From Spirometra erinaceieuropaei (lineage: Eukaryota > Platyhelminthes > Cestoda > Diphyllobothriidea > Diphyllobothriidae): a stretch of 64,000 bases of DNA. Where the stretch lies: positions 903,787-967,786 of the forward strand of contig CACRXP010000162.1 in assembly GCA_902702965.1 (NCBI GenBank), written 5' to 3'. The notes beneath the pieces are model-generated. The model was given only the letters and a program-made list of their open reading frames with translations. It did no database searches and was not told the DNA's origin. The position numbers and the translations under genes were made by a program. Shown here one piece after another: positions 1 through 61,880 of the stretch (the first letter of the stretch is position 1; every line of letters begins with the position of its first letter).

Positions 1-92
1 TATCAAACTTTCCTTCAGAAAACGGTCTTTTCGTCCTTATTTCAACCAAATAAACACAAATAACGACACCAAAAATACACTACATTGTCCAC

Positions 93-135
93 TATAATTT
101 TGACCTCGGCATTTCATGAGTTAGCACAGGTACTG
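93..135. repeat. Isolated terminal end of the TA-flanked inverted-repeat element family
   Basis: This short stretch matches the right-hand terminus of the inverted-repeat elements annotated elsewhere here (for example 29825-29869). It contains the conserved CATTTCATGAGTTAGC core, ends in GTACTG and is followed by TA at 136-137, as expected for a TA target site. The DNA to its left does not continue clearly into the arm sequence, so this is a solo end or a very decayed copy. Confidence 0.55.
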
Positions 136-137
136 TA

Positions 138-11000: not shown

Positions 11001-14000
11001 CTGATGCAAACATTACTGATCATTTAAGGGAATCGCAAAAAATTGCTAGTTTTCCAGTCTTCAAGAAAACAATAAAATGTTCAAATTTGTAATGAGCATG
11101 TTTCAATATTCCTGAACTAAAATTCTGTTGAAAAGGGCAGATCGTGTTAACTTATCCAGCTGGATTGGCCTTGAAAGCGTTACATTAACCATCTTTTCTG
11201 AACCGAGTAAAAGAGAGAGATAACTGTTTTTAATATAAATTTTCCACTGAGTTTTGTTTTCAAAATATCATATGTGTATTTTGTCCGGCATGAGCCATCA
11301 AGAGAAATGCAGTAAAACAATAAGTTTTCTTCAAAAAACTAGTCAACTGGGTATGATTTCTGAACCTTGGGACTCAAAATGAAGATTCGCTGCGATAAAC
11401 AGTGTAAAATAGAACGCTTTTCTCAAAAAGACAAGAATTTGGCAATTTGTTTGCTAAATAATACTACTGAATTCAACTTGGTAATCGAGAATGAAACAAG
11501 TAACACAGGAGAGAAGCCAAAACATTCTTAGCATTAAATGTGACAGATGACTATGGATTTTTGACGTTTTGACTAACCAACAGCAAAATCGCTTCTCCTT
11601 ATGGACAACAAATAATTAAGCAAACAATTTGTAAATTTGGATACATTAATAATTTTTTACTGCATACAATGTTTATCGAAGCGATTTGGCATATGCTGAC
11701 CTTAAATCAAATCCCAAAAACTTGGAGTAACTCGCGCGTGGCTTCAGAAATGCCGAAAAATTATCGCTGGAAAGTGTTCGCAGTACCATATTTCTTTGAA
11801 TATGAGACCATGTTGTGTGTCGCATAACGGACCCTGCTTTACATCTTTAGTAACCGTCAAGTGTAATGTACAAACCCATAAAATCACACGAGTGACGTCC
11901 ACCGCATATCTATCACCTTGATTTTAAGAAATACCGCGGCCAGAGTTTCTTGAGTAAGTCTTGCATCCCCCCTTTAGTCCAAATCAAGGTCATATGTGCC
12001 CTCATTTGTGGCCGCGGTGACTAGCGTTTCAGGCCCTGTTGGCCTGCTTTACCGGCGAGGCACTTACTCTCTGAACCATTTTATCCCCTAATCATTTCAT
12101 ATTATGATGCCAGTACTTTCTCCGCCCTTTACTACTCCAGAGCATCTGAAGCCGCCTAAACCACTTTCCATCCAAACTCCTCTACTCTCTAGGGCAAGTT
12201 TGTCTATCGGAGAGAGATGATAGATGCTTTCTACCTGCTAACTTTCTGCTAGTTTATCTGCTGCCTTCTGCATTGTTGCTTGTGACTGTATCCCTAAGAA
12301 CACACCCGATTGTGATTAACTTATCGGGTTTATTTGTCTGTTTGCCGAGTGCTCATTTTCCCGAACTTTATTTCTTAAATCCGATAAGTTTGATAGATTC
12401 ACATTTCCAGTGCGCCATTCTCTCTACTTCATTTTATACATACCCAGTTAACCTAACTGGAAATGCTTTGAAAATCCTAGGGGAAATGTCATTCAAAAAA
12501 CCCTCAAAGAAGCTGGCCAACCCAAAATACTCAAGTGAGTTTTTCTACTCGTTTGCATATTTATCATTTATAAAAATAATTACATAGTTCAAGTACCTAG
12601 GTGCTGGATGTTCTGTAAATCTTTCCTTGTCATTGCATTTTTGACTTATGTTAACATAAATCTACCAAATAGCGCACTATGTCCTATGCTTAATTTGCTA
12701 CTTGATAAGCTGTCCCTCAGCTTGGAAATTTGTCATGCCAACAGGCTGCTTGTTTGCAACTAATGCTCAAACCCATTAGCAATCGTTATCAGAATGTACG
12801 TAGATTGCATGATGCATGCTTGGTGTTGTTATATTTTTCCGAATCGATTTGAGTCAAGGGCCCTTTATCAAAAGAACTTAGTTTAAATACATTAAATTGA
12901 AGGAAAATAGGTCAAGCTTAAACAAAGTCGGGCACTTCCCTGTATTCAAGTAATTTCCTACAATATCGATGATTATAAGTCAAAACCTCTTGCCCTGGTG
13001 CCCTGCGCTATAAAAGTACACTGATAAAATTAGGAAAAAATTCAAGTAAATCCATTCTTAGACCGCAAATTCTAATTTTACATTCTTTACAATTGAGTGG
13101 TGTCAGATGTGAGAACTCGAGTTTATTTCAAGAAGCAAGGAGAGGAGTCAATTTTAAAAATTCTACTTTACAAAGTTTTGACGTATTATGTCGCACAACG
13201 CAGTAATAGGCTTGTTTATTAGTAACGTTCATTGCCGTTCTGAGAATTAGAAAACAAAAACATATATAGGGCATCTCCTAAAGTTTACATATTTTAGGCG
13301 TACACAGAAACTACGAATCGAGGCTTAGTATTTCTAATATCATGGCAATATCGAGGACCAAATCAGATGAATCAACACAGTGCAAAACATGTAAGAAGAC
13401 ATTTAGATTCGTCGCACGCAAAAGATTAACCCCTTGTTTGGAAACGTTTGACATATTTAGGAAAAATATAAAATACTTCGCACTTATCAGAAAAAAGCTT
13501 TAAGAAAACCCTTTTAATTGAACAAACTGAATAAAGTTTTTACTTTTTCAGAAGTACGATGATCGCAGAATTTTTTTCTGGCAGAGCCTTTTTTGTGATA
13601 AAGCTCTGTTTTTGGACAACTCCCTAGAGGCGGCCCAGGTGGTCATAGGTGGGGAAAACTTTTCACGAAGACGCAGTGTACCGACAGCAATGCTCAAGAA
13701 CTTCTGACCTCTGACGGCTTGAATGGTCGTAAAATCTGGAGGATGATCAATCAATGGTGATCAACGGCAGACACAATAAATGTTAATAAATGTTAAGCAA
13801 AGGATGCCGTCGATTTGAATGGCCCTCACAGGCGAATGAACATAGTCACGTTTGACGGTAGTTCTCCCGTACATCGTCAACAGGAAACGTGATTCTCTCC
13901 ACCTGCAATCCTCGATGTTATTTTTTCACTCCCACCAACCCAGAATTCAATTCCACGAAAACACCTTTGCCCCAATCGAAATAAATCGGGGAAGGTAACA

Positions 14001-16572: not shown

Positions 16573-17541
16573 CAGTGCGTGACCAATCTCCTGAAATGCT
16601 GGCCGAAATTCTGAAATGTGTTTTCGATCAGGCAGAATTACTTAGGTGGCGTTGTAATATTGATTAGCGTCCAACATCATCAAGATGTTGGCTTTTGGAT
16701 GCACTTCTTTTAGACCGCCTACAGGAACTGCGCTCTGCAAAAAATGACTACTTACTTGGCATGCATTTTTCGTACTAATATTAAATGGTCTTATAAATTT
16801 AAACATATTTGATAGAAAACGTGCATAAGAATATGCCTTATTTTACTCATTTGGTAGAAATCACTCTGTTTTCATATTTTATACCTTAAGAAATTGTATG
16901 CTTAGGTTTTAAAGAAGCATTTCGATTCCCGAATAATTTTAAGCCAGATCTGCTATTTCATCAGCGTTTAGCGATGTTCGTTTGCACGCTACATGCTTTT
17001 CTAGTAAGGAAAATCATATATTTCTCAATGCCTTTAAGACAATACCATATAGAATTCATAAAATTTTGCTATGGATCCGGACTGTGTTGTACATTTCATG
17101 AGAAGCCTCGGTAAACGGATATGTGCGATGGTGTACATACGGACATCGAACAGTCTTAAAAATCTCATAATTAGAAGCTTTGTTAAAACCCAGATATACA
17201 CGTTCTTCAGGTATACAATATGCAGATAGTGTGATTTTAAACAAATAAATAAAAGAAGGCATATTCTTTTGAACGTTTTCGATTAAATATATTTTAATGT
17301 ATAAGACCATTGAAAATCAATACGAACAATGCATGCTATATAAGTAGTCATTTTTGCAGAGCACGGTTTCTGCAGGAGGTCTAAAAAGGTGCATCTAAAA
17401 GCCGACATTCCGCTGAGTCCGAAATAATATAGGATTATGCCTCATGCTAACCTATATTACAACGCTTCCTAAGTCATCCTTCCTAATCGAAAGCCCATTT
17501 CAGAATTTCGACCAACATTTCATGAGATCGGCCATGCACTG
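16573..17541. mobile_element. Complete TA-flanked inverted-repeat element (subfamily 2)
   Basis: The element starts CAGTGCGTGACC and ends with the inverted counterpart GGCCATGCACTG, flanked by TA at 16571-16572 and 17542-17543. The inverted arms match in their terminal core (TCTCATGAAATG-like) and inside (GCATGCATTTTT on the left, the reverse on the right near 17328-17340). The centre is unique and carries no transposase; open frames of 84 and 61 codons on opposite strands are by-products of the arms. TA borders and a CAGT start fit a non-autonomous Tc1/mariner-type element, although arms this long are unusual for a MITE. A short perfect hairpin (16671-16678 with 16684-16691) lies in the left arm. 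Confidence 0.85.
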
Positions 17542-18226: not shown

Positions 18227-18336
18227 CCATTAAAGCAATGGTTGGGTTTAGCTGGCTGACGACAGCTAAGGAAACAGAAATGGCCGTTTCCCTCTTCCTT
18301 GCCTTTGCCGTTAATGTTACTTTGCCTATATTGTGA
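18227..18336 (+). repeat. SINE-like repeat, internal body fragment
   Basis: This aligns by eye with the middle of the full SINE-like unit (about 55889-55980): a GTTGGGT start, GGCTGACGAC followed by GGCTAA-like sequence, ACAGAAATGGCC, then CTTTG-C-GTTAATG and TATAT. The tRNA-like head and the 3' part are missing. An 84-codon open frame (18082-18336) overlaps it but is probably accidental. Confidence 0.7.
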
Positions 18337-19212: not shown

Positions 19213-20671
19213 TAGAGGCCTAGGTTTTCCCATTTGGCAATTGTATAGCAATTAATGAACAACGAGCATAGTGGTGTTCGCCTCAATCATCATTCTTTAG
19301 ATTCATTTCCATAACTTTTGGACAGATCTTATTTGGTTTTTAGGAGACCTTAACTGTATGGAAATGCAAAATCGCACATGATCGAGGTGTATATAGTTTG
19401 AATAAACCAATAATTTAAAGCCACAAAAAAGCAGGTCGGGTGTCAAACACTTTTTAATGATGTCTAAGTAAACTAGTAATAGCCGCTAGTTTTTGGTTAA
19501 AACGTATAGCTTTGTTCTTGGGGCATTGTCGGAAAACTAACAAAAAACCCTCTTCAGGCAAAATTAAAAATTTTTAGATATTATCGTTAATGAAGGTAAA
19601 CGTCAAAGCATACATTAACTGACATATCTCATGAAATATTGACACGAATCCTGAAGCCTGTTACGCATTAGAGGGGATTATTTAAGTGTGGTTATAATTT
19701 TGATGATCATACAGACTAATTCAAAGATTGTTTAATCATTCCAGGATAGTGATTGTGAACAAGCTTTCCACCGGCTGTCTACAAACACATCACTTGATAA
19801 AACTGACAATTTGCATTTCTTTAGAGATTTTCCATATCCTTTTAACATTAAATATGCATTATAAAAATGTGTATAATATCTGTCTGTCTTATATTTTTCG
19901 GTACCAGCCAGCTGTACAATCTCTTGCCTTCGATCTTGCTGACTCTGTTTTAACATTGGGCCCAGATAGAGAGAAGCAGGGAGCGTGGTAGATGTTGCGC
20001 AAATCTACGATCATTTTTATTCACGCGCAAGTCACTGTCCGCGTTCTCACTCTGTTGTGTGGCACATGTTGGGCGTCGTCGGCCACCACGGTTGAACAGT
20101 CGCCCAAAACCTGTTTTTGTTTAATAAAATTTAAATATCTATCTTATAACTTAAGCAGTTGCCCTAAATGAATTCGTTTTCTTCTATGACTTTGGCTGCA
20201 CAATCAAAACAAAAGATATTCATTCAAATGGATTTAAAAAATAGGCATTTTGAAATGACTTCTGCCTTATAAACAATACCATCAGATATAACTGTCAATT
20301 GCAACTATTTTGCACATATCGTTGATTATTTTTCCATTATTTTGCAAGTAATCCCAGGAATCTGCTTTCAAGAACAGCCATTTAAACACACTATGACCAA
20401 AGTTTTTTTTAACAGTGAAGCAGTAATCATTCTTTTGCATATTTTCATCTGCTTTTCTGAACCACCCTTAGAAAATGCGTAAACAGCTTGCAGTGGCAGA
20501 AAAAAAACGGAATTAAAGAATGAATTTTAATTACCGTAGTGACAATCACAACAGCTGTTTGCCTAATAAAGAGACGTGTTTAAACTTTATTCAGAAAAAC
20601 ACGCAGCTTCTTAAAAATAGGTCTGTCTGTGTATGGTTAGTTATTGCCAGCCATAGACGTTCTATTCTTTT
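19213..20671. repeat. First unit of a 1.46-kb tandem duplication
   Basis: This segment is repeated directly downstream as 20672-22217. Landmarks include CAATTAATGAACAACGAGCA (19249 and 20711, offset 1462), the GGGCCCAG...AGGGAGCGTGGTAGATGTTGC stretch near 19959-20000, and AAAAACACGCAGCTTCTT near the end. From about 19612 it includes a decayed TCTCATGAAATATTGAC stretch followed by sequence resembling the left arm of subfamily-2 inverted-repeat elements. A degenerate element may therefore have been part of the unit before duplication. No conserved coding frame exists across the two units. Confidence 0.85.
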
Positions 20672-22217
20672 TTGTACAGTCTTAGGAGTTCCCTTATGGC
20701 AACTGAATGGCAATTAATGAACAACGAGCATATTGGTGTTCGCCTCAATCATCATTATTTAGATTTATTTCGATAACTTTTGGAAAAATCCGTTTGGTTT
20801 TCAAGGAGACCTGAACTTCATGGAAATGTAAAATCGCACAGAATCGAGGTGTATATACAGTANNNNNNNNNNNNNNNNNNNNNNNNNNNNNNNNNNNNNN
20901 NNNNNNNNNNNNNNNNNNNNNNNNNNNNNNNNNNNNNNNNNAATTTTAAGCCACAAAATAGCGGATTAGGTGTCAAACATATTTGAATGATGTCTAAGTA
21001 AATTAGTAATAGCTGCTAGTTTTTGGTTTAAACCTCTACAAATTGTTCTTGAGACATTGTGGGAAACGCAACAAAATGCGCTTTTTCATGGAAAAGTAAT
21101 AAGGTTTAGATATTATCGTTAATTAAGACAAACCCCAAAGCATACATTTACTGACCTATCTCATGAAATATTAACGGGAGATCTGAAGCCTATTACCCAT
21201 TTGAGAGGATTACTTAAGTCTGGTAGTAAATTTGATCATTGTGCAGCCTAATTCAAATATTGTGTAATCATTCTAGGATACTGCATTTTGAACAAGCTTT
21301 CGACCAGCTGCCAGCCAAAACATCACTTGATAAAAAATGACAATATGCATTTCTCTAGCGATTTTCCATACCCTCGTAAATTCCAGTATACATTATAGAA
21401 ATGCAGAATAGTGGTCTTTCTTATATTTCTTTGGCACCAGTCATTTGCATCATCTTTTGCCTTCGATGTTGTTGACTCTGTTTTCACATTGGGCCCAGGA
21501 AAAGAGAAGCAGGGAGCGTGGTAGATGTTGCGGAAATCTACGATCATTTTAATTCACGCGCAAGTCACTGTCTCCGTTTGCATTCTGTTGTGGGGTAGAC
21601 GTTGGACATCGTCGACCAACACAGTCGAAGTGTTGCTTGAAAACATCTTTAATAAAATTTAAATGTCCGTCATATAACTTACGTAGTTACCCTAAATAAT
21701 TTCTACTTCTGCTATGACTTTGGCTGCAAAATCAAACCAGGAGATATGAATTCAAGGAGAGTTAGAAACAAAAATAGACATTTTATAATTATTTTTTAAA
21801 TGAACAGTTCCATCAGATATTACTGTCACTTGCACTTATTTCGCGTAAATTGTTGATGCATCTCCATTATTTTTCAAGTAAACCCAGGAATCTGCTTCCT
21901 GTGAAAAATATGCTTTTGGAAACTGCCATTTAAACATGCTATGACCAAAGTTTTTCACAGTCAAGTAGCAACCGTCCTTTTTGCATTATTTCTTCTGCTT
22001 TTCTGAACTGCGTGGGAAAATCCAAAAACAGCCTGCAGCGGCAGATTGTGGTCAAACCTGAAAAAATGGATTTTACTTGCCTTAGTGACAATAACAACAG
22101 CTGTTTACGCAACTGAGAGACGTGTTTAAAGTTTCTTCAGAAAAACACGCAGCTTCTTGAAAATAGGTCTGTCTGTGTTTGGTGAGGTTTTTGCCAGCCA
22201 TAGGCGTTCTATTCTTT
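20672..22217. repeat. Second unit of the 1.46-kb tandem duplication (contains an N gap)
   Basis: This is the direct repeat of 19213-20671, with scattered substitutions and small indels. It contains 79 undetermined bases. The two units end together at CGTTCTATTC (20658 and 22205), after which they diverge. The degenerate inverted-repeat-like arm seen in unit 1 recurs here from about 21147. The 74- and 68-codon open frames inside are not conserved as protein. Confidence 0.85.
20863..20941. other. Assembly gap (79 N)
   Basis: A run of 79 undetermined bases. In the paralogous position of the first duplication unit (about 19397-19416) only some 17-20 bases separate the same flanking landmarks, so the gap length may not reflect the true sequence. 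Confidence 0.99.
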
Positions 22218-25200
22218 TGACATTTTTTATAATGGTAAAAAGTTGACTAGACATATGAAACGTGCTGACAGTCATATCTTAATCCCTGCGCTTACAGGAC
22301 TGAAATTTCTTTAGATTATTATGTTCGGCATGGATAACGTCGGTTTAAACAGAAAGTGTTTAGTTGTTTCTTTCATTTTTAAATTTGCTGAGGTAATCAC
22401 TTTGCTAAAGCTAGGACCTGCCAAGCAGAGAAACGTAAAGAATGGAACGATATTTTGTAATACACTTGTTTGCAAAGGCCTATGCCCGGCTTTTTCGTGC
22501 AGAAGAAATAGTAAAAATGCAAGCGTATTGCACTACTGGTTGCAAGGGCAATCACGCAACTAGAGACTGCGCTTGCTTCCTATTGTTGATAGACATTACT
22601 TGAACACTTAAAAATCTATGTAAATACGAAATGTCTGCCTAGTTTTTCCCAATTGCTTGAAGATGCCGTCGAGGAGGACATTGGTTTATTCCGAAAAAGA
22701 AAAAAAAGACATGCAAACCTGCAGAATTGATAAGAAACGATTGCCGGTCGCTTGAGCTTGAATGCGTCTTCAAGTTAATAATTGATAAAAGACGACTATA
22801 TTTTGTGTTTGCTCTATATATTAAATAGGTTTCTCCACGGCTGAGATCGATTTGTGTTTAACTATAAAAAATTGTAATTTTCGCTGCGATATGTTCCGCA
22901 GTAGTAACGATGTAAACTTTGAGAAATTGGTGTTATTAGACGCATATCATTGAATATTCCCCACCGCGAGAAAAAGTGTCCTGTGAATTAGACTGACGAG
23001 GATGAGAGCTGCAGGTGTTGAGAATGCCAGAAGGAAGAAGAATTATGATTTGGTTCTATTAGATCTTATGCGTGTAGGTTTCCTCACTGTGACCCGACAT
23101 GATATGCTGTTTGGAACTCAGTTCTGACCAGCGTGGTTTAAAAAATTAAAGGAGCGCAATTTTTGGCCAGTTGACTTAACTGCTGGCCAACGTGTCTGCT
23201 GCATAAGCATCTGCTAGCTTGAAACTTCAAAGTTTTTTCTGTACTGTGTGAAAAATTCTTAAGACGTGGCTGGCATCGACTATGTAGTCAACGTTTATAG
23301 CTTATCAGATATTCAAAGGGAGGTGACATTGCGAATTTGAAGAGTTAATGTTTTAGCAATGGTAGTTTTGAATATGTTGATGACGTACGTTGCCCGTATT
23401 CTATCGTGTCACCTGCCAATGACAGGTTTAGCTTCTTTTGATGTATCCAGGAATGTCGCACTTTGAAGACTCAGTGGATGTCCCGTTACAAACTGTGCAA
23501 GCCTAGAGTAAATTCTTTGGAATAAAGTTTTTGGGTTTGCTTTTTAAGACCGACATGAATTTTTAAGCTAAAACCTATAAAATTTTGTTCCAAAAGATCT
23601 GTTTCAAGCTAGTGCGCTGGTTACTTCTGACATTATAAAGGGTAACATGTAAACTGTAGTTTGCATACTAAAACATATACCAGGATCGCTGGGGGGCATT
23701 GATGGGCAAAATCCCCGCAGCTGTGACATGAACAGAATCAAGACTGCGGAATTACGCATATCTGCGTTTTTGGCTAATAAGTACGCAGACGGCACGGTAA
23801 ATCACTCGGGATCAGTCAATAGCGGCCTAAGTGCGCTCTTGGGTACTGAGATGTACGGTTGGTTTGTAACGTGCACGTTTATATCATAAACTGCTTGCCT
23901 TTTCGTCAGTTATATATCTACCATGCGTTAAGGGCTGTCGTAAGGTCAGCTACTTTTTTCCTTACTTCTAAGCTGGATTTGGAGGTCACCGTCTCACCTA
24001 CAAACTATCAGTGAAGTGCTTGTTGCAGTCAATAGGGCATTGTGCTCTCAATTACTTTTTTAAGCGGACGAACAAGCAAAGGACTCTCATCCACATTTTC
24101 ATGTTTTACCTAAGTTAAAGTCCAATATATGCACGCCGTGCGTCTAACACACATAAAAGGATGATTTTTGTCTTTCCTATAAAAAGTGCGAACCTGAATG
24201 CCTGACAGCTGCAGTAGGATTTTAATCTGATACATTATTAAATATTTCAGCACTTCTACAAGAGCAGCTCGGACATTATACATTAAATTGACAAGACAAA
24301 AAAACTGCGAAAAAAGTATTTTTATTTGAAGAAAAGAAGGAATCTTTTTCGAAGCAAATGTACTATTGATTTCACAAAGGCAATCTCATTCTCAAACACC
24401 TATCTTCCTTCACATTTGCATGCCAGCATGAATTCACTAACACATAAATCTAAATAAAAAAGAGTTTATTCAATTCTGCCCGTAAACTCAGAATTTGGTA
24501 GATTGCCCCATGCAAGTTAGCTAAGTCAAGACCATTAAAACCCGACCGTAGCTAAAAAGGAGAACTATGCAATGAGCAAAACTTCAGCCATCCCTCCCCC
24601 GGCAGCAGGCCCCAACTTCAGTATTCCCAGAAAAAGGGTACGATTTTTGTGTCTCCCGACAGAGTAACTCTAGGGGAGAGTGTATGTATGAAAGAGAACT
24701 TTCACTGTTTTCTCTAATGAAATCTTTATTTGTCCGAAAATCCCCTTGTCCCAGTTCTGAATTATTGAAAATTATGGATGTCGGCAAAGGTTTTATGCAT
24801 GCCTCTAGCTAGAGAGAATGTGGTGCTGATAAGGATACGGTGGAACGCAACTCTAGCGGGGACTTAGTCGAAGTATCTGGAACACTATCACCAAGGAGCT
24901 CGAATGCTATACTATCACATCGGTCAAGCGTTAGGCTTAAATATACCTTTTGAAATTAAGCGCGCAATCCGTAATAGTACCTTAAGTTATTTGGCATTTA
25001 TAGAGATGATAGCGTTCTTGCGAAAGCCTTTTTTGGTTAATGCAAAATTTGGAAGTGGAAGTCATACTATGTATTTGAGGCGTCTATTTGTATCTTCATT
25101 TGACGACTCTACAGAATGTTCTAATAGTATAATTAAGCAAATGCCTCAAGTATCGCCTAAGCCATACGGGACAATGTTTTTGTCTGATTTACAAGAAAAA

Positions 25201-27239: not shown

Positions 27240-27914
27240 AGACTGTAGAAAATCACGACTTCTTTCATTTTCTAACTCAAAGGAAGGGCAAAATTCGACT
27301 TTAAAAAGATCTTAATTATGAAAATTTTCAAGACCGTGAAATGGCCGTCCGTAAAACGTCATACCTATGCATTTACCAATGTGGCTTGTAGAGTTAACGC
27401 TATGAATCAAATCCTCCGTCTGATTTTATGAAACCCATATGATCTTCTCCTAATACCCCAGAGAAATATATGGTTTTCCATGTGCGCATAATAAAATCTT
27501 GTATTTTGGAAACACTGAATGCAAAAGTAACGGCAGGCCGGAGTTCAAATTTTGTCAGGAATCGACACTGTTTTTTTAAAAAAAACGTATACCCCTCCCT
27601 CGAGTACGAATTTGGAAGAAGACGTAATTTTCTACCGAAAATGCAAAGAAATGATTAGTTTCTGCATGGTCTTCATGAAATATAATCGAATTTTTAAGAG
27701 CATAGAAAATCGGTGAGAATAATTCATGCAGAATACAGTTTTTGCACACAACCAAAAAGAAATTCCTTCGAAAGCCGGCATATTTAGGTAAATGGATTAT
27801 TATAAAACAATGTTGCGAGGTGATTATTATTACAACCCCACTTAATCAATCTGTTCGAAATGAAAACACATTTCGTAATTCCGGTTGATATTTTATGAGT
27901 TAGTCCACCTACTT
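27240..27914. mobile_element. Inverted-repeat element (subfamily 1), left terminus missing
   Basis: Sequence from about 27240 matches the inner left arm and centre (AAGGAAGGGCA..., then CAAGACCGTGAAATGGCCGT), and the right arm continues to a recognisable end at 27914 (CCACCTACTT followed by TA). The outer part of the left arm is absent. The DNA to the left (27060-27240) is unrelated to other copies, so the element was truncated by deletion or replaced by another insertion. An 81-codon cysteine-containing frame (27070-27315) crosses the junction and is not recognised. Confidence 0.75.
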
Positions 27915-28883: not shown

Positions 28884-29869
28884 CAGTAGGTGGACTAAAT
28901 CATGAAAGGTCAACCGAAATCACAAACTGAGTTCTCGTTTCAAAAATATTATTTAGGTAGGTTTGTAAGTTTGAGCATCGCGCAGCATAGTTCTATAATT
29001 ATTCATTTACCTCTGGATGCCACCTGTCGAACGAATTCCTTTCCGACTAAATGCAAAAATCATACTCTGTAAAAATGACCACATATGTAGCATGCATTTT
29101 TCTCACTGATTTTCGATGCTCTTAACAATTCGATTGCATTTTACGGAAAACATGCAAAAAAGTAGTCATTTCTTTGTTTATTCGGTAGGGAATTAATTCC
29201 TATTCTAACTTTGTACTCGAGAGAAAGGGCGTTAATGGGTTTTCAGAAACTTTCACAGTTCCTGAATAATGTTGAACCCGACGTGCTGTTACACTTGCAT
29301 TTAGGGTTCCCAAACTACAAGGCTATATTAAGCGCTCATGGAAAACCATACATTTGTATAGGGTGTTTGGAGCAAATCATATGGGTTTCATAAAATTTGA
29401 CGGTGGACCTAAGTCATAGTGTTAACCTTACAAGTTACATTGGTAAATGCATAGACATGAGGTTTTACGGACGGTCATTTCACGGTCTTGAAAATTCTCA
29501 TAATCAGGAACTTTTATGAAGCCACATTATGCCCCTTTCTTTTAGTATGACATTGGAAAAAGACTTAATGCCTTATCGAATGACCAAAAGAATGAATATT
29601 TTTAATCACGAAATTTTATTGCATTGCTAAGGACGTCGAACATCTCTGAGAAAAATGCACCCTATTTAAGCAGTCCTTTTTTACAGTCCACTAGTTTTGC
29701 ATGCAGTCGAAAGGAAAGTTCTTAGAAAGCTAGCATCATGCGATAGCTAATTTATCGTGGATTTATTTTTCGGGATGGCTAGTTTGACAACCCTCCTGTA
29801 TTAATCTTTTCAAATGGAAAACGCTTTTCGTGATTTCGGTTGGCACTTTGTGAGTTAGCCGACCTACTG
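28884..29869. mobile_element. Complete inverted-repeat element (subfamily 1), 986 bp
   Basis: The left end reads CAGTAGGTGGAC and the right end is its inverted counterpart, GACCTACTG, followed by TA at 29870-29871. The left border dinucleotide is TG, so one target copy has mutated. By-eye alignment of the left arm with the reverse complement of the right arm holds for about 375 bases: the shared landmarks are GTAGCATGCATTTTTCTCA-type sequence, the CATTCGGTAG-like box and the ACTTTC/CATAAAAG-TTCC region. A unique centre of roughly 230 bases separates the arms. There is no transposase-sized frame. This copy is the clearest reference for the family. Confidence 0.85.
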
Positions 29870-32800: not shown

Positions 32801-33164
32801 AACCTTTCCAATTAAATTTGCGTTCATTGAGGAATAACTGGGCTTTGGGCTACCGCATTCTAAAAAAAGATTCTTTAGACAAAGACAATAGAGTTTTTGG
32901 ACTCAAAAATATATTTCCAAAGACGCTCAAAAAATTAGTTCCGAAAACATGTGGTTCTTCTTTCGTTCAGAGAGCGTTAATTAAAGAATAATAGAATCGG
33001 GCGGTTTTTTTAACATTTTGTTTTGGTTACTTTAATGGAAGTAAAACACTTAGATGGTCCCGATGAACCAATCACACGGAGTCTTTTTTTTTAAGGCGCT
33101 ACAAAACTGCAGAAATCAAAAATTACCCCATTATTTTAAGCGCACAAAAAAGCCCTTATGCCTT
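29870..33164. other. AT-rich DNA with no recognised gene
   Basis: A 112-codon frame (30298-30636, +) overlaps a 71-codon frame in another phase; neither shows a motif. No repeats shared with other parts of the window were seen. Confidence 0.45.
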
Positions 33165-33670
33165 TCAGAGTATGTTGTATAGAGCTCCAAAAATTTTGCG
33201 ATGGATGCGGGCTATGTTGTGCACTTCAAGAGGAACATTGGCAAACGAACACGTACCATCCTGGATATATAGGCATCGGACGGTCTTAAAAACCTCCTAA
33301 TTAGAAACATTTTAAAAACAAAAGATAACCCTTCCTAGGGCAGAAATATAAAAACAATATAGTCTTCTACCACAAAAGTTTAGGAAAGCATACTTCCTGC
33401 ATGTTTGCTATAGAATATATTTGAATTTGTATAACCATCCAAAATCAATGCAAAAAATGCATGCTACATAAGTAGCCACATTTCACCAGGTATGATTTCA
33501 GCCGGAGATCAAAAAGAAGCGCATTCTAAGGCCGACAACCTGGCGTGTCCGAAATACTATAGGATTATGCTACGTGATAATGAATATTACAGCACTACCT
33601 TAATAGTCCTTCCTAGTTACAAACCCATTTCAGAATCTCGGCCAACATTTCATGAGATCCGTTATGCAGT
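33165..33670. mobile_element. Inverted-repeat element (subfamily 2), centre and right arm only
   Basis: The sequence aligns with the centre and right half of 16573-17541 and 51078-52068. Shared landmarks are CAAAAATTTTGCGATGGATGCGG, AATGCATGCTACATAAGTAG, TAGGATTATGCTACGTGATAA and GGCCAACATTTCATGAGAT. The left arm is missing and the last bases of the terminus are degenerate. The overlapping 82-codon frame (33492-33740) is unlikely to be a gene. Confidence 0.75.
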
Positions 33671-37734: not shown

Positions 37735-37848
37735 TCCTATATCATGCGCCGCTGTGCGGCTGCTGGCTAGGGTCGGGAGAGATAACCCATAAGGCACAAG
37801 GGAACATGTTCCGTAGTAACTATCGATAAGCACCTCTCGACCGCTGAT
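37735..37848 (+). repeat. SINE-like repeat, 3' fragment
   Basis: It matches the 3' half of the SINE-like unit at 55801-56083: ATATCATGCGCCGCTG, then CGGCTGCTGG, a GGGAGAGA box, AAGGCACAA-GGAAC, TTCCGTA and GATAAGCAC in place of GATCAGTGAGC. The tRNA-like head and first half of the body are absent. Confidence 0.72.
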
Positions 37849-39184: not shown

Positions 39185-39555
39185 AGAGAGAGGGAGAGCA
39201 AGTCGCTTTATTTTGAAATCGTAAGTTCAAAATTTTCAGCAAAAAAATTGGCTCCATTCACTATGGGCAGCAAATAAGTTAATATATTATTCGTGTCAAA
39301 GTTTAACTTCGCAGGCATAAGATCAGAATGTAAGGGATGGGCAACGTCATCTAGAATTCGGCCAGCAAATTGCTTGACCGAAGTGAAGTGTCGTTGTAAG
39401 ATAGTGTCAACTTAAAAAAGACAAGGAACACCAGCAGCAGAAAACAGCATACGGAGGACTCGTTTGAAAATTAAAAGATTCCTTTGAAGCAATGCAGGAA
39501 AAATGACAGGAGAGCAGTATATGAAAATAGGAAGAATGCAGGTATCGATGTATCG

Positions 39556-40445
39556 TCAGACTAAGGGTTGAGGTGTGTGGTAGGAACGTAAACGACGTAC
39601 GTAATAAAGAAGTTTACGAACTTTAATAAATAGGGACTCAGTATCGAGGGAAAAGGAAAGGTTTGAGGACATAGTAACGCCGAGGTACCTGAAAGAGGAT
39701 ACTTCGTTAGGAAGAATGTCAGAGGATTCAGGATTATGAGAGGACCGCAGTTGAAAAATACACTGAACGGATTTTTTGTTGTTAATTTGGAGACAATTTC
39801 CCTTCGACCACGCTAGGACATGGTTTGGGCCATCCTTTAGAGACCGGAGGTGTGTCTGACTTTTGAGAGGGTGTCCAACAACCACATCACCAGCATACTT
39901 GACCAAAAGACAGTCCCTAGGGGACCTTAGATCGTCAGTGTGGAGGGAGAAAAGGCGAGGGGATAAAATGGAACCTTGATGAACACCACAGTCATTGGTG
40001 AAGATCGTAGATTTCCGTTTGCCAGATTGGACAAATTAAGTGTGGATGGTAAAATAATCGGTAAGCCAACAAACGACCCAGCCTGGAGAGCCGCACAGGG
40101 AGGTTTTGGTAAGGAAAACAGGGCGCGGAACGGTATTGAAGGCGGAGTAATCAAGAAAAGTTCACGCATATTCGCGGCAACCCTTGTCTAATTCTTTTAG
40201 AGCAGAGTGCACCACAAGAGCAACAGCGTCGTAAGTACTGCGTTTGGCTTAGTATGCGAATTGTAAGGGTCAGTAAAACTAGAAGAAAAAGGCTTTATGA
40301 TATCTAGGGCAACTCTTTCAGCAAGCTTTAGTATTGCGGAGGAGCAGGCAATTGGACGAAAAGATTCAGAACCGAAGTAAGCGGGCTTTTTAGGGATGGG
40401 AGTGATTCTCACTGTGCGCCAGGCGTCAAAAATCTTGGACTCCAT
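39556..40445 (-). pseudogene. Reverse transcriptase domain of LINE copy 2 (catalytically altered)
   Basis: Reading down the minus strand, the first part (40445-40197) gives VRITPIPKKPAYFGSESFRP and AILKLAERVALDIIKPFSSS, standard for the finger region of LINE reverse transcriptases. After a frame change comes a motif A-like DYS-AFNTVPR segment, then KYAGDVVVG with YAGD at 39897-39886. Copy 1 has YADD at this position, so the first catalytic aspartate has become glycine (a GAT to GGT change). SFRYLGVTMSS and a KVRKLLYYVRRLRSYH tail follow (39906-39556). Polymerase activity would be lost even if the frame were intact. Confidence 0.87.
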
Positions 40446-40541
40446 GAAAGAAATATTGATTAGGTGCGTTAAAATAGGGACTATCTGAAAACTGCAAGAT
40501 TTAAGAAGACAAGCCGAGACACCATCCGGTCCGGCAGCTGT

Positions 40542-41222
40542 TTATCCACGGACCATTTTAAGGTGTTTCTCTACTGTTGCCAAAGACACGGGTTGGAATG
40601 TACACGGTAATAGGGGAAAGTCATCTAAGGGAAGATGAGAGTCCTTGTGACTTAATATAAACTTTCTACTTAGGGAGTCTAAATCTGCATCCACATGCAT
40701 CAGTGTTTTGCAATGGCCAGTGAGAGGCTTAAGATTTTTCCAAATCTCAGCAGAGACAGGGGAAAGGGGAGAGGAAGAAGAGGAAAAATGTTGGCTGACA
40801 AACAGGCTATTTAGTCTGTCAATCTCTGTTTTTATTAAGGCGGTAACGTCCTTATGACTATCACGTAAGCCTAGCTTGTAAAAGAGTTCTTTTTTACGTC
40901 TTAGCGATTTCAGATAGGAGGAAGAAATTCTATCCGGTCGTACCATAACAGTATCAAGAGGGCAGCAAATATCGAAAATTTTATTTAAAAACGCTGTCAG
41001 GTAGGAAGAAAAGGATTCAACATTCGATTGTTCAAGGAAAGTGGGGATAGAATGAGGAATGCAAGTCTGAAGCAGGAGAATGTTTTGGGCGGTCGTGTTG
41101 TGAACCTTAACCTTTTTCTCAGGCTTGGCTAGTAGTGCACGTGCAGAAGTGGCATAGATTTTTGGAAGTCGCAATAAAGTGGAATCGTCAAAACCTGACA
41201 ATGGTACCCTATTTTTGCGCAA
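40542..41222 (-). pseudogene. Linker between endonuclease and reverse transcriptase of LINE copy 2
   Basis: This 226-codon frame is the longest uninterrupted piece of the LINE. It has no catalytic motif. Parts recur in copy 3 (EIWKNLKPLTGHCKTLMHVD corresponds to a diverged segment near 58190-58250) and at the start of copy 1 (around 485-545). The position between the endonuclease end and the TGPDGVS start of the reverse transcriptase matches the weakly conserved connecting region of APE-type LINE proteins. The frame ends at 40542, just before the TGPDGVS-coding sequence. Confidence 0.75.
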
Positions 41223-41889: not shown

Positions 41890-43714
41890 GGAGGATATTG
41901 CGCCAATTTTTAAAAGATGCATGACCTAGGGATAGCCCAAAAAGGAACTTTCTAAATATGCCTACGTTCATGTTGCTACACATATCCAGTCGTTGGAGCT
42001 CGCCAAAGTTTAGTTAGTTTATTTATTTATCTCAAGTGTCCATATTTTCAGCACTTCAAATTTTTCAGGAAATTGTCGCTCCTCCTCAGGTTCAATCAGC
42101 TTTGAGCAATTTTTATGTTTTTCTTTACCTGGTGGTGCAGTTGTTCCGATAGCTGCATCTGAAAATGTTTTCTGGGCAGTGGAAAGTTTCAGCGCATGGT
42201 TGTTTGTTCACGTCTAGGTAACTGACTGCACATTTTTGCATTGGTTTATGTCGTTTATTTGAAATGCACACTGGATGATTATTAATAGGGACCTCAAACA
42301 GAGGGCTTTGCGATTTTATTACTGACGACAGCACACAATTACCCCTCTAAATTATTTTTTGCAAAGATTAAGATTTTAATCTCAAAATAACTGTCACCGC
42401 AAGTTACCATGAAAAAACGCATCACTGAATTAAATGATGAAGTTCTGCATTCCTATAATTTGCACTACTTTTTCAAGAATAGGCTGTAAAGAGATTCAGA
42501 ATTCCACAAACTCATTTTTATGCATCCTCTTAAAAATCCGATAACAACTGTGAGTGAACACAAAAGTTACATACATTCTCCTGTAAAAAACTGATGGTCT
42601 TAATATATGCTTTCGTGCTGTCAAACACATTAAATACCTAAAACCACAGCAATGGACAGCATCGCCGTATTGCTTGTTCGACTGCTGAATCATATGACCT
42701 CTTCAGTTACATTTCGAAGACGTTTGTTACAGCCAGATTTACTGAATGTAAAACGAAAGAGACACGCTTCTTAAACACAATGTGGAGTGCCTAAGGTGTT
42801 TTTCCTATGCATAGGCATTCTGTTCCGACTGAAATTATCTAGAATCGACTACGCAAGAAAGTATAATGACTGTTCCTGTTTCGAAATCACCCTGTGGTTG
42901 TCTAGTTTCTTGTTGTGGAAAGTGCTCTGTAGGCCATCTACCCTGGTAAGTTCAGCCCTGCTGAGTCAGTCTTAATTTGTTCCTTCACTCTGATAGGCAC
43001 TGAAGCATTATAGGTCCAAACGGTATTGATACCATATAAAAAATTGACCGTCCTCAATACGTCTCCGTGGCTGATTTAAAGGGAAATGCCTGGAGTTCTC
43101 ATTACAGAAGCATATACTGAATATGAATTAGACTTAAAACGCTGGACAAAATTTTCCTGAGCATCAAAAGGGCAAAGGCCGTACTAAGTCATACGGTGTA
43201 AAAGCGTGGAAATACATTTTAATGACCACTCCTTACCTTTAAAATAATTGCAACTTGATAGTCTTGGAGTCATAAGGTTTGGCATCTTGAAACGAGGTTT
43301 TACTCTTTTTTCGCAGTATTTGGCCGATGTATTCTTTCTAGTTAGAATTAAAAACTTTTCTTCATAACATTCGTATCTCAGTTAATTGTCACAGTTAAGC
43401 GAGGCTGGAAAACATTTTGACCAATTATAATTACTTTACTCGAAACATAACAGAGGCTACATAACCACGGCCTGGTACGTTATTAAATAACTGTCGATCA
43501 TGTTCATTACAAGTCCAACTCCTAACAAGCAATAACTGTGTCTCACAATTTTTCTTTTTGTCAAGCCCTTTGCTGCTATTATTTCACGCACAGTAGAGAC
43601 ATTTATGTTACAACGATCTTAGTATTCTTCCCATATAATTGGCTATAAGGAGACATCTTACTCCAGTTTGCCTACCATATACTTTATATATTGAAAAATA
43701 GGCATTCCAAGAAA
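41890..43714. other. AT-rich DNA, nothing recognised
   Basis: Open frames of 62-69 codons only, without motifs. If the tRNA-like sequence is a SINE head, its tail may extend to about 41960, but no second copy here confirms that. Confidence 0.45.
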
Positions 43715-43822
43715 TACAATTAGAAAGATAAAGTTCTTTGGGAAACATCAAAATTTTTTTGTGAATTTTCGAGACTGGTTCCCCAGCACGTCTTCAGACA
43801 ATGGGTGTGCAAAAACAATTAA
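43715..43822 (+). repeat. Inverted copy of the PLE 5' coding region, left flank
   Basis: About 108 bases match the reverse complement of 45964-46072 with few differences, starting at an ATTAGAAAGAT-AAGTTCTTTGGG box and ending at GGGTGTGCAAAAACAATTA. Beyond both edges the similarity stops abruptly. Confidence 0.9.
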
Positions 43823-43869: not shown

Positions 43870-44844
43870 TCATCTCGGGATTGGCTGACTCAGTTTGAAT
43901 CTGTCCTTAACGATTTTGTATGCGGCATCTAAATCGATATGCCGGTTTATGCATGCCTCATCTGAGTGCATTGCTTCCAGGAATTCGCGGCCTTTTCTTG
44001 ATTGGCAGGCGCCAACAATGCGAGTGTTCTCCCATGCGAATTCATGCCCAGTGTCTAGTGTGTGCATGGCCACCTGGGATAAATGGTCGCGTCTCTTCAC
44101 CGGTAACTGATGCTCATGTATACGGGTTGAGACAGATTTCCCAGTTTGGCCACAATAAACGGCATCACAACTAGAACACGGGATTTTGTAGACGACACCT
44201 TTTCTTTCAAGGTAGCCGACCCTGTCCTTAGGGGGCACAAGCTGTGTGTGTAAGGTAGTTGCCGGCTGGTGTGATACGTGTATCTGGTACTTTTTCAATT
44301 GTCTTTCGACAAGTTCAGATACATTTTTGACGTATGGGAGAGTTCGCCATGTGGTTTGTTTTGGTGCCTGAGTGGCCGTAGCATTGGAACTACCTTTTCC
44401 CTTGAGTTGCTGGTACCTCATGCATTGACGTATAAAGTCATGCGGGTACCCATTTTGGGAGAACAGTTTGTAGAGGTATTTCATTTCTGCTCGATAACTT
44501 GTTTCGTCAGAGCAGTGGGTTTTGGCTCGATTCAGAAGGCCGTAGACTGTACTCCGTTTGTGAGAGACGGGGTGGTTACTCTCAAAGTGTAGGATGACCT
44601 CTGAATACACCTCTTTGCGATAAACTGATGTCTGGAGTGATCCATCGGTTTTTCGACGTACAAGGACACTCAGGAATGGGAGTTGTCCATCGACCTCTGT
44701 TTCCAGAGTAAATGTAATTCCCGGAAATATGGAGTTAATATTGGTATGGAGTAGATTCAACTGTTCTTTCTTGACGATGACAAAAGTGTCATCTACGTAT
44801 CGCAGACAAAGTTTTGGATTGACTGTGGGAAGGGCTATGCTCTC
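43870..44844 (-). pseudogene. PLE C-terminal part: YVDD motif, connector and GIY-YIG endonuclease
   Basis: The frame is open from just after a stop at 44845-44847 to its end at 43870, 325 codons including the stop. It starts upstream of RYVDDTF (44802-44788; both catalytic aspartates present) and continues through a VDGQLPFLSVLVRRK segment, a conserved PLE block. About 135 residues from the end lies the endonuclease: GVVYKIPCSSCDAVYCGQT, where VVYKI and VYCGQ stand for the GIY and YIG strands, then STRIHEHQ with the conserved arginine and histidine. The CSSC pair is typical of PLE endonucleases. Its role is to nick target DNA for integration. Taken alone this half looks well preserved. Confidence 0.88.
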
Positions 44845-44847
44845 TTA

Positions 44848-45147
44848 TTTCTGCAGTAATGCTTCTGCCAGGAAACCGGATATTAGTGAACCCATGGGGG
44901 CACCTTTTAATTGCCGTTAGCATTGACTTGAGAAGGAAAACTTTTTCTCCAAACAGAGATCAAGGAGTTGAAGAAAAGCCTCTGGAGGTACCTCAGAAGT
45001 ACATGTTTGAAGCAGTTCTTCGGTGCAGCTTTTTGCTAAATCTAGCGGAATCGAAGTGAAAAGCGAGACCACATCGAATGACACCATAATCTCGTCACAT
45101 GTGATGTTAACACCGCTCTATTTGTCTAGAAACTCTTTTGAATCCTA
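44848..45147 (-). pseudogene. Damaged palm region of the PLE reverse transcriptase
   Basis: Stops at 45145-45147 and 45118-45120 interrupt a frame that still reads EIMVSFDVVSLFTSIPLDLA, the motif A region containing the first catalytic aspartate. A frameshift near 44905-44930 moves the sequence into the frame of GAPMGSLISGFLAEALLQ (motif B, about 44906-44850), which then meets the stop at 44845-44847. These lesions separate the two long open frames of the element. Confidence 0.85.
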
Positions 45148-46128: not shown

Positions 46129-46135
46129 TTCCGGT

Positions 46136-48447: not shown

Positions 48448-48449
48448 TA

Positions 48450-49425
48450 CAGTAAGTAGGCTAACTCATGAAATGCTAACCATAATTCTGAAATGCGTCT
48501 TCATCTCGAAAAGATTAACTAACTACTATTGTAAAAATAAACATCGCGCAGCATAATTCTATAATAATTCAGTTATCTTAGAAGGCTGGCTTTAAAACGC
48601 AATTTTTCCCAGCCGCATGCAAAACGCACGCGGTAAAAAGGATTACATAAGTAGCATGCAGGCTTCTCATCGATTATTGATGCCCTTTAAAATTCAACTA
48701 TATTAAATGGAAAACATGGATAACACTATTCATATTCTTATTCATTTGGTGGAACATTGCGTATTCTCTCAAGTTTATTTTTAAAGTAAGAATATAACTC
48801 GGGTTTCAAAAAACTGTCCAATTGTGGGATTTCCTAATTAACTGGAATTACCGTTCATTAAACGTAACGTTTCCGTATTTACCGTCTTGGCTTGTAAAGT
48901 GAACAGTATGTCTCAAATCCATTGACAAATTGCATGAACCCCATTTTGTCTACTCTTAAGGCCATTGACGAATATGTGGTTTTTGGAACGCGGAAAGTAT
49001 ACGAATTAGAGTTTGGAAACCCTGAACACAAGTGAAACGACAGGTCGGATTCAAAATTATTACGGAACTGTAAAAGTCTTTAAAACCGAATTATACCCTT
49101 TTCAGGTATAAAATCGGAATGAGACTTAATTCCCTACTAACTGAACAAAAGAAATCATATTGTTATCAATGCAATTAAGTTATTAAGGGCATCAAAGATC
49201 TATGGGAAAAATGCATGCTAATTAATTGGTCATGTTTTGCAGAGTATGAGCTTTGCATGCAAATGAAAAGACATTCATTCGACCGCTGACATTCTGAGGT
49301 AACTGAATTATTATAGCACTGTGCCGCGCGATGTTCAGTTTTACAAAACTGCTTAATTTATCTTTTCAAAACGAAAACATATTTCGAAATTTCAGTTTAC
49401 GTTGCATGAGTTAGACCACCAACTG
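48450..49425. mobile_element. Complete inverted-repeat element (subfamily 1), 976 bp
   Basis: The left end is CAGTAAGTAGGC preceded by TA (48448-48449); the right end CCACCAACTG is followed by GA, where TA is expected. Arms share the CTAACTCATGAAATG core, a GTAGCATGCA box near 48651 and its inverse AATGCATGCTA near 49211, and the CATTTGGTGGAA/CCTACTAACTG boxes. The centre holds no recognisable frame. It is clearly related to 28884-29869 and 50299-52270. Confidence 0.83.
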
Positions 49426-50298: not shown

Positions 50299-52270
50299 CA
50301 ATAGGTGAGCTAACTCATGAAATGTCAACCAAAATTCCGAAATGCGCTTTCGTTTCGAAAAGGTTAATTAAGTAGGGTTGTAAAACTAGTCAGCCTGCAA
50401 CATAGTTCCAGAATATTTCAGTTATCGTACGATGCCGGCTTTCGAATGAACTTTCTTCCGGCTGCAGGCAAAAACTACACTCTGGTAAAAATGACTACAT
50501 AATTAGCATTTATTATTTTCATTGATTTTCGAGACTATTAAAAATTCAATTATATTTTATTGATGTCGTGCATAACAATAATGATTCGTCTACTCATTCG
50601 GTAGGAAATTACGTCTTCTAATGTCATACTCGAAGGAGGGACACAATTATATATCGAAAATAGTTTCTAATTGTGGGTCTTTTGAATACCGTGAAATGGC
50701 CGTTCATAAATCCTCATATCCCTGCATGTGGCTTGTAAAGTTAACAATGTGGATCAAATCCACTGTTTACTTTTATGAACTCTATGTGGTCGTCTTTCAC
50801 TGTCGTAGAGAAATATGTGATTTTTATGCGTAAAATATATGGCTTGTAGTTTCGAAACCTTAAATCAAAGTGTTACGGAAGAGCGGGTTCAAAGCTAATC
50901 GAAAATTGGAAAATTGTTTTATACTGAATTATGTTCCTTCCTTGAGTAGACATTTAGAAGAAGACGTAATTCTCTACCGAATGAGCAAACCAATGAATAA
51001 TTTTATGTTTGTTTAAATGAAATACAATTAATATTTTAGGGGCATCAAAAGTGATAGAGAATAGTGAATACTAATTACAGTGCGTGACCTATCTCATGAA
51101 ATGTAGGCTGAAATTCTGAAATGCGTTTTCCATTGGAAGGATAACTTGGTCGCGGTTGTGATACTGGTTATCTTAAGACATATTCTGTTAACACTGTAGA
51201 CTCGACAGGATTTCAGCTTAAAAATGCCCTTCTTTTCAATCTGCTGTAGAAAGTGTGCTCGTTAAAAAATGACTACTTAAGTAGCATGCATTTTTCCCAT
51301 TGATTTTTGATGGTCTTAAAAATTCAATTTTATTTTATAGAAACCTCAAACAAAAATGTGCTTTTTTAGCCAATCAATAGAGAAAAACGTCTTTTTTATA
51401 TTTTATACTTAGAGAAGAAGTATAATTAGGTTTTAAAAAAGTTTCTAATTATGAGACTTTTTAAGACCGCTATACGTCTATTCACATAGCACCGTACCTG
51501 GCCGTTTACCACTGCTCCTCATGAAATGTACAACATGGTCCGCATCCATTGCAAAATTTTATGGACCCTGTATGATATCTCGATAATGACATAGAAAAAT
51601 ATTGGATTTTCTTTACGCGGAACGCATGCACCTTGTAGAGTGTAATCACTAAGCGCTAATGCAAGGAATGATCAGGCTCCAAATTATTCGGCAATTAGAA
51701 AACTTTTTAAAACCTAACTATACTCCTTACTTAAGTATAGAATATAAAGAAGACGTTATTTTCTATTGATTGACTAAAAGAAAGAACATTTTTGTTTGGG
51801 GTTTCTATAAAATATATTTGAATTTTCAAGACCATCGAAAATAAATGGGAAAAATGTATGCTACTTAAGCAGTCATTTTTTACCGAAAACGCTTTCTAAA
51901 GGAGATTGATAAGGAGTGCATTTTAAAGCCGACATCCTACTGAGTCTTAATTGCTATAAGAGTATGTCATATGATAATCAGTATCACAAATGCGACCAAG
52001 TAATCCTTCCTCATCGAAAACGGATTTCAGAATTTCAGCCAACATTTCATGAGATAGGTCACGCACAATATGTCATTACTTTTAACAGAGTGTAGTTTTT
52101 GCATGCGGCCGGAAGGAATTTCATTCTGAAGCGGCATCGTGAAATAACTGAAACATTATGGAAATATGTTATAGGCTGAATAGTTTTACAACCCTACTTA
52201 ATTAAACTTTTCGAAACGAAAACGTATTGCTGAATTTCGGTTGACAGTTTGTGAGTTAGCTCACCTGCTG
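50299..52270. mobile_element. Inverted-repeat element (subfamily 1) split by a nested element
   Basis: The left end CAATAGGTGAGC is preceded by TA (50297-50298) and the right end CACCTGCTG is followed by TA (52271-52272). The element is interrupted at 51078-52068 by a subfamily-2 element. Removing that insert and one TA leaves about 979 bp, the standard length of the family. The left part ends inside the right arm, and the arm continues after the insert with AACAGAGTGTAGTTTTTGCATGC, so both parts belong to one original element. Its centre carries a 70-codon frame (50621-50833) without motifs. Confidence 0.88.
51078..52068. mobile_element. Complete inverted-repeat element (subfamily 2) nested in 50299-52270
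   Basis: It begins CAGTGCGTGACC and ends GGTCACGCACAA, an inverted match except for the last two bases. TA borders it at 51076-51077 and 52069-52070. At 991 bp it is close in length and sequence to 16573-17541. Its arms include AAAAATGACTACTTAAGTAGC near 51266 and the inverse near 51859-51875, about 600 bases apart. There is no coding frame of note. Confidence 0.88.
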
Positions 52271-61199: not shown

Positions 61200-61880
61200 C
61201 AGTATGAAGGCTATCTCATTATTTGTGAACAGAAATTTTGAAATGCGTTTCCGTTTCGAAAAGTTTAAGTAGGTTTGTAAAACTAGTCAGCCTGCAACAT
61301 AATTCTATAATATTTAAGTTACCTCAGAACGCTGGCTTTTGAGTTATCGTCCATCCGGCTGCATGTAAAAAAATACTCTGTAAAATGACTACTTGAGTAT
61401 CATGAATTTTTCTGACTGATTTTCGATGCCCCTAAATGTTCAATCATATTTTATAGAAAACATGCACAAAATATTCATTTTTTGCTTTTTCGGTAGAGGA
61501 TTACGTCTCCTTTTAAGTTTATGCTCCAAGAAGGGACAAAATTTGGTTTTACTTATATTTATAGTTGTTGGAGTTATAAATATCGTGAAAGGACCGTTCA
61601 CAAAGCGTCATATCTCTGCATTTACTAAAGTGGCTTGCAAAGTTAACAGTATGCATCAAATCACCTGCTTAATTTTATTATTACTTTTATTATTAGTCAC
61701 CCTTTACTACCGTAGACCAATATGTGGTTTTTTGTGCGCGTAAAATATACGACTTGTAGTTTGTAAGCTTCGAATCCAAGTGTGACGGTAGAGCGGATTC
61801 AAAATTATTCGGGAAAATTGCACAGAAAAGAATGTTTAAACACTCACTATGTTCCCTTAAGAAGTATCCTATTTAAGGGT
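61200..61880. mobile_element. Inverted-repeat element (subfamily 1), right terminus missing
   Basis: It starts CAGTATGAAGGC (preceded by TG, not TA) and follows the subfamily-1 left arm: GTTTCGAAAAGTTTAAGTAGG, AAACTAGTCAGCCTGCAACA, CTGTAAAATGACTACTTGAG, ATTTTATAGAAAACATGCAC. The centre (ATCGTGAAAGGACCGTTCAC and following) matches 50299-51077. Similarity ends in the right arm near 61880, so the outer right arm is lost. The 105-codon frame at 61426-61743 lies in arm and centre and is not conserved as protein. Confidence 0.8.

Follow-up and report, generated by a model that had tools for sequence, protein, structure and literature searches.

The window analysed here, a 64-kb stretch of the genome of the tapeworm Spirometra erinaceieuropaei, contains repeated elements of about 1 kb whose long arms are inverted copies of one another, and raises the question of how elements that carry no transposase are mobilised. 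Self-comparison of the window recovered all of the copies named in the original prediction, five two-ended and three partial. These had been taken for a single family; they fall instead into two related families, A (copies beginning at 27245, 28884, 48450, 50299, and 61200) and B (16573, 33158, and 51078). The A and B consensus sequences are 72% alike over their whole length and 74% alike in the arms, so the long-arm design predates the split between the families. The A consensus (995 bp) was built from 10 copies, three of them from the window, and the B consensus (994 bp) from 30 copies, one of them from the window. Family A ends read CAGTAGGTG.GCTAACTCATGAAATGTC and family B ends CAGTGCGTGACCTATCTCATGAAATGTT.

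Table. Coordinates, strand, and properties of the elements and transposase remnants in the 64-kb window.
Feature	Position	Strand	Details
End of a T copy (137 bp), cut by the left edge of the window	1..137	-	99.3% identical to T positions 1-137
Decayed fragment of a transposase element resembling L046	9695..10126	+	68% over 470 aligned columns, E 9e-47
Another decayed fragment of an L046-like element	13452..13781	+	67% over 339 aligned columns, E 4e-20
Family B copy, two-ended	16573..17541	-	969 bp; arms 81% identical; 74% to B consensus
Partial family A copy, single end	27245..27913	-	
Family A copy, two-ended	28884..29869	+	986 bp; arms about 28884-29249 and 29513-29869; 81% identical to A consensus full length
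Partial family B copy, single degraded end	33158..33668	-	
Family A copy, two-ended	48450..49425	-	976 bp
Family A copy, first half, split by family B insertion	50299..51075	-	halves align continuously to 28884 and 48450
TA target duplication, left of nested B copy	51076..51077	.	
Family B copy, two-ended, nested in A copy 50299-52270	51078..52068	+	arms about 374 bp, 85.5% identical; 92% to B consensus
TA target duplication, right of nested B copy	52069..52070	.	
Family A copy, second half, beyond nested B copy	52071..52270	-	
Partial family A copy, single end	61200..61820	-	

The foldback anatomy attributed to these elements is real. In the B consensus, a short centre is enclosed by long inverted arms that match perfectly for 365 bp and almost perfectly up to about 380. 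In 28884-29869, 248 of 363 aligned arm bases are identical and the arm alignment scores 214, the best of 200 shuffles reaching -14; in each of the five two-ended copies the arm alignment beats all 200 shuffles. No tandem repeats lie inside the arms, and the one array reported in the window by Tandem Repeats Finder (7180-7234) is outside all elements. No listed open frame of 110 aa or more is present in the window elements, and searches of Rfam and a phage collection gave no match. Short, non-coding, high in copy number, and uniform in length, A and B have the characteristics of miniature inverted-repeat transposable elements (MITEs). The statement that transposase is missing holds for the elements themselves but not for the window, which contains one end of a member of the transposase family T described below (1-137) and decayed transposase pieces. 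The 1,887 bases to the left of the window are all N. A solitary Tc1-type end at 8044-8094 resembles the T right end (76%).

The 50299 and 51078 copies had been listed as two neighbours, a reading rejected here: B copy 51078-52068 interrupts an A copy and is nested in it at a duplicated TA. Joining the flanks with one TA restores an A copy of 979 bp, which aligns across the junction to the 28884 copy (70% identical) and the 48450 copy (68%). The nested copy leaves a reconstructable empty site and shows insertion at TA with duplication of the target. The TA borders that had been predicted are present in most copies genome-wide and imperfect in some. The elements have defined TA-CAGT ends, and TA lies on both sides of 26 of 30 B copies and on one side of the other four. 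Among eight A loci, TA is found on both sides in five, on one side in two, and on neither in one (L004); the 28884 copy is bordered by TG on its left side and by TA on its right. Further, of 60 B ends, 42 have A as the third base outside the TA; with A assumed at 31%, the binomial p is 8e-10, for the best of ten positions inspected. A preference for A..TA..T resembles the targets of the Tc1 family.

A search for an autonomous element with the same termini, as originally suggested, found one with nearly A-like ends. T, the main transposase family, is about 1,920 bp long, has the same TA-CAGT start, and shares its terminal ~28 bp with A, with 3-4 mismatches in most copies and up to 6 in others. 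A genome search with Pfam DDE_3 (150 matches scored of 824 first-look candidates) provided 30 loci that were cut out, the best-scoring only. Two T-like ends are present in 24 of the 30, with TA on both sides in 21 of the 24, and two recognisable ends are missing in the other six. Facing A-like ends with at most 4 mismatches of 28 occur in half of the 30 transposase loci, namely 14 T copies, 11 of which are 1.91-1.92 kb, and L048, whose ends differ from those of A at 3 and 2 of 28 positions. One end of the 48450 copy (48448-48476) is 93% identical over 29 bp to one end of L048. The 16 T copies compared are 89.7-99.2% identical pairwise.

The T reading frame is broken by a 42-46-nt GT-AG stretch between the second catalytic D and the E. 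An apparent stop after about 262 aa suggested a broken transposase, a reading rejected because the stop belongs to this ~43-nt stretch and proteins read across it: Spirometra proteins P0088 and P0090 read HRSKE-T exactly across the GT-AG junction. Since Spirometra proteins cross the junction as spliced models would, the stretch is read as an intron. Eighteen elements (16 T copies plus L046 and L048) were chosen from the 30 loci; with the intron removed, nine of them, all T copies, read through to give 329-336 residues with a D2-to-E spacing of 34, and nine, including L046 and L048, do not. The same spacing is found in all four Spirometra proteins that read across the intron junction. The first open frame of T matches Pfam HTH_7 above its cut-off and HTH_Tnp_Tc3_2 and DDE_3 below theirs, and the second matches DDE_3 above cut-off. 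Of six solved relatives, Sleeping Beauty is the best match to a junction-crossing Spirometra protein (E 1.5e-5). Judged by its sequence, T encodes an apparently intact DD34E Tc1-type transposase; such a native enzyme would be a lead for a tapeworm genetic tool.

T may also have given rise to shorter forms. Facing T ends lie 0.3-1.5 kb apart in several places in the genome, and there are T loci of 0.9-1.7 kb (L039, L064, and L066); these suggest that, next to the hitch-hikers, T has ordinary derivatives formed by internal deletion. In L040 and other T copies the outer motif occurs again, inverted, within the right end (ACCTGTGCTAACTC facing GAATTAACACAGGT), where it is a possible second transposase site.

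Since T shares the terminal ~28 bp of A and encodes a DD34E transposase, we propose that A and B are very probably non-autonomous Tc1-type transposons, MITEs with foldback anatomy that are helped in trans by a T-like transposase. In support of the Tc1/mariner-type mobilisation first suggested are the A-like ends and DD34E triad of T, the nested TA insertion, and the target preference outside the TA. The T transposase, or its close relatives, would bind the shared ends and move both A and B in trans by cut-and-paste; judged by end bases, the partners of A are the T and L048 lineages. The long arms do not derive from the partners tested and are older than the A/B split. Less surely, the arms of single copies may exchange sequence by conversion, keeping the palindrome.

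Divergence from the consensus is 4.0% for the left arms and 4.35% for the right arms of the 30 B copies, and the two arms diverge from one another by 5.9%, against 8.3% expected if they were independent. Left-arm substitutions are mirrored in the right arm of the same copy in 121 of 440 cases, compared with 19.3 on average and 34.1 at most when arms are paired across copies (2,000 permutations). When the right arm is taken from the nearest sampled relative, 20 substitutions are mirrored, and same-arm sharing with that relative amounts to only 26, so subfamily structure does not account for the excess. Thirty-five copy-private substitutions are mirrored, with about 9 chance parallel hits expected in all. 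Mirrored and unmirrored sites are clustered in tracts, with 109 switches against 165.5 (sd 7.4), and so few switches arose in none of 5,000 permutations; the two arms of L014 agree throughout their first 333 positions, which include 8 mirrored substitutions. Between positions 80 and 200 the mirrored share peaks at 21-26%; it is 14-17% in the outer 80 and falls to 3 of 91 at 320-360. Four of the 30 copies (L015, L027, L031, and L038) have no mirrored substitution, and the longest identical arm stretch is unusual (p <0.05) in nine, two of them without mirrored substitutions. In family A, the arms of L008 are 94.7% identical, though L008 itself matches its four near relatives at 81-83%; within each of those four, the arms are 81.4-83.5% identical. 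Because 121 mirrored substitutions stand against 19 by permutation, and lie in tracts, sequence comparison suggests conversion between the arms of single copies; that this conversion helps to keep the arms palindromic is less sure. If confirmed, the mirrored substitutions make it testable how transposons keep long inverted repeats alike.

The mirrored substitutions could instead be an assembly artefact, short-read assembly or gap filling having written one arm into the other, an account to which we give considerable weight while leaning against it. The arms are near-identical and about 374 bp long, and Table 1 of PMC12249497 gives a contig N50 of 29,662 and 9.8% N for the assembly, in which short contigs were joined into scaffolds. 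The 30 B copies, however, contain no N run, and 627 of 748 variable sites are unmirrored, so the arms were usually resolved.

The helper of B is less clear than that of A. The exact B end is absent from every transposase locus inspected. The left end of L046 is closer to A (2 vs 5 mismatches) and its right end closer to B (5 vs 7), while L089 and L090, each located at one end only, have 6 of 28 mismatches to B. The B-type TGACCTAT is kept in the right ends of L046, L089, and L090. A protein search pointed to many further relatives of this group (169 matches, 150 scored of 2,902), two of which were retrieved. The ends of B are only similar to transposase ends, with 5-6 of 28 mismatches at one end, and the L046/L089/L090 lineage is, at that one end, the best candidate for its helper.

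In all 40 comparisons of the A and B arms and centres with five transposase elements, similarity did not rise above the best of 100 shuffles. Descent of A and B by internal deletion from T, L046, L048, L089, or L090 was rejected, there being no similarity beyond the ends. With its outermost ~30 bp shared with T and L048 and its long arms private, A has the arrangement of a Tc7-type hitch-hiker. Tc7 of C. elegans, reportedly described in 1997 by Rezsohazy under the title 'Tc7, a Tc1-hitch hiking transposon', is said to be 921 bp long, with arms of about 345 bp and a unique centre, to share only its terminal ~36 bp with Tc1, to target TA, and to be moved by the Tc1 transposase. A and B would share the design of Tc7 so described, which is a precedent for their foldback anatomy. 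Unlike Tc7, they are two diverged and very abundant flatworm families with several candidate helper lineages and an arm-conversion signal.

One inner part of the arms is unusually alike in the two families. Arm positions 185-229 of B are identical to A at 44 of 45 bases, a value matched by 5 of 5,000 shuffles; among B copies the block has no special conservation. It bears no resemblance to the terminal motif, and may possibly have a role in transposition. The arms were also searched for a second copy of the binding motif, as in the IR/DR (Sleeping Beauty-like) subgroup; no arm match scored above shuffles, which gives no clear second transposase-binding motif there. One 12-base match to the terminal motif lies in the B centre (p 0.006 and 0.04 at two gap settings, among 16 tests).

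These features bear on the alternative that A and B arose by internal deletion from an autonomous Tc1-type element that escaped detection and has ~375-bp terminal repeats, T, L046, and L048 being only cousins with a conserved end. Such a parent would account for the conservation of the 45-bp block, as expected of a second binding site, though the block is unlike the end motif, and for arms and centres that match none of the five partners tested; long-repeat Tc1/mariner elements are described in PMC5490172. L055, a decayed L048-like locus, has an A-type end piece of 53 bp lying some 740 bp upstream of the transposase sequence, although the membership of that piece in the element is doubtful. 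Against this, A/B matches longer than 35 bp occur in six of the 32 transposase loci compared, which were cut out as the best-scoring (L039, L043, L047, L050, L055, and L068 have such matches). Each match is on one side only, in five of the six it falls beyond the ends of the element itself, and we take these matches to be neighbouring copies. We consider a long-repeat parent rather unlikely.

The predicted folding energy of the 51078-52066 segment is -483.8 kcal/mol (z -49, 20 shuffles) and that of 28884-29869 -304.7 kcal/mol (z -6.2), the latter moderate against the extreme value of the young B copy. These predictions indicate only a capacity to form a hairpin. One reading would have the arms kept palindromic by within-copy conversion, independently of new transposition, with the 45-bp block selected in source elements. 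We hold this to be decidedly unlikely; if true, the hairpins would let the transposon repair itself and, in an animal that lacks a canonical piRNA pathway, would provide a constant supply of double-stranded RNA. It is very unlikely that the arms function as a hairpin RNA feeding small RNAs and are retained for that purpose: the folding energies would fit, but any long inverted repeat folds in this way, and the copies diverge from the consensus fairly evenly along the arms.

The proposed Tc1-dependent MITEs are abundant. In the 758.7-Mb Spirometra erinaceieuropaei assembly there are 2,054 exact A-type ends (1029+1025), 1,194 exact B-type ends (599+595), and 708 exact T ends (360+348), counts that cover any element bearing those ends; the reversed-pattern control was 0 in each case. 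The best 40 B matches (40 scored of 11,152 first-look candidates) are all full length, about 990 bp, and at least 88% identical. A and B make up 7.0% of 38.7 kb of random sequence, mostly from two of the 20 pieces (six hit), and shuffled pieces gave no A/B match. This sample comprised 20 pieces of 2 kb with seeded-script starts in contigs 1-480, first 390 kb, 19 from the script's first batch and one from the second, one near neighbour having been dropped. The corresponding share is 4.1% of 47.3 kb flanking T loci (6 of 30 hit), 11.0% of 105 kb flanking A/B loci (25 of 72 hit), and 11.2% of the window. As these small samples disagree, the genome fraction is quoted as a range of 4-11%.

The published annotation tabulates DNA elements at 4.07% of the genome, TcMar-Tc1 at 0.53%, and unclassified repeats at 21.55%, and MITE-Hunter is among the methods it names (PMC8166898). 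At 4-11% of the sampled DNA, A and B amount to at least the published total for all DNA elements, and part of the 'unclassified' Spirometra repeats may be Tc1-dependent MITEs. Among the titles and abstract openings listed in literature searches, none describes the A or B families. That low TcMar-Tc1 figure, the 48,074 CMC-EnSpm pieces listed in the published annotation, and the foldback elements known from the Mutator and P superfamilies (PMC3169594, PMC3573991) would suit an origin of A and B in another superfamily with TA-like targets (e.g. Mutator-like or CACTA/EnSpm) and convergent Tc1-like ends, but this deserves hardly any credence and is already largely contradicted by the 2-bp TA duplication in 26 of 30 B copies and the near-identical 28-bp ends on both sides of T, the autonomous relative found being itself Tc1-type DD34E.

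Several other transposons resemble A and B in part. Tc3 is a Tc1/mariner element with long terminal repeats (about 460 bp), a TA target, and its own transposase between the repeats. The aphid LTIR mariner elements are described similarly, with terminal repeats of about 460 bp, TA targets, and their own transposase between the repeats (PMC5490172). Long terminal repeats and TA targets are common to these elements and to A and B, which differ in having no transposase and in that the partners found have short repeats. Galileo, a Drosophila element of the P superfamily, has long terminal repeats and two-TIR copies without transposase, and, in its authors' proposal, recombination and conversion are drawn to long repeats (PMC3573991). 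It differs in superfamily and in its internally repetitive arms; the tandem arm repeats of Drosophila Foldback and Galileo are not found in the A and B copies of the window. Tetris and DAIBAM are non-autonomous foldback MITEs whose repeats have only their final portions in common (PMC4079207). A and B are likewise non-autonomous foldback elements in which only repeat ends are shared, and differ from Tetris/DAIBAM, in which tandem 220-bp repeats are reported inside the arms (PMC4079207).

The window also contains repeats of other kinds. A Penelope-like retroelement with two open frames occupies 43870-46134 on the minus strand; the best Spirometra/Sparganum matches to the downstream frame are 73-74% identical, and a 108-bp inverted repeat (94%) lies at 43714-43821 and 45969-46076. 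Two retroelement copies with a reverse transcriptase domain, at 482-1793 and 39306-40621, are 88.6% identical and in opposite orientation, and an older relative of them lies at 57957-59213. A head-to-tail duplication of about 1.5 kb (19213-20671 and 20675-22218, 78-85% identical) includes a 79-base N run at 20863-20941, and an adjacent direct repeat of about 0.5 kb is present at 5153-5615 and 5631-6157 (73-83% identical). Finally, a dispersed repeat of about 80-92 bp, 79-81% identical and possibly a SINE piece, occurs at 18241-18331, 37737-37815, 55675-55766, and 55888-56070.
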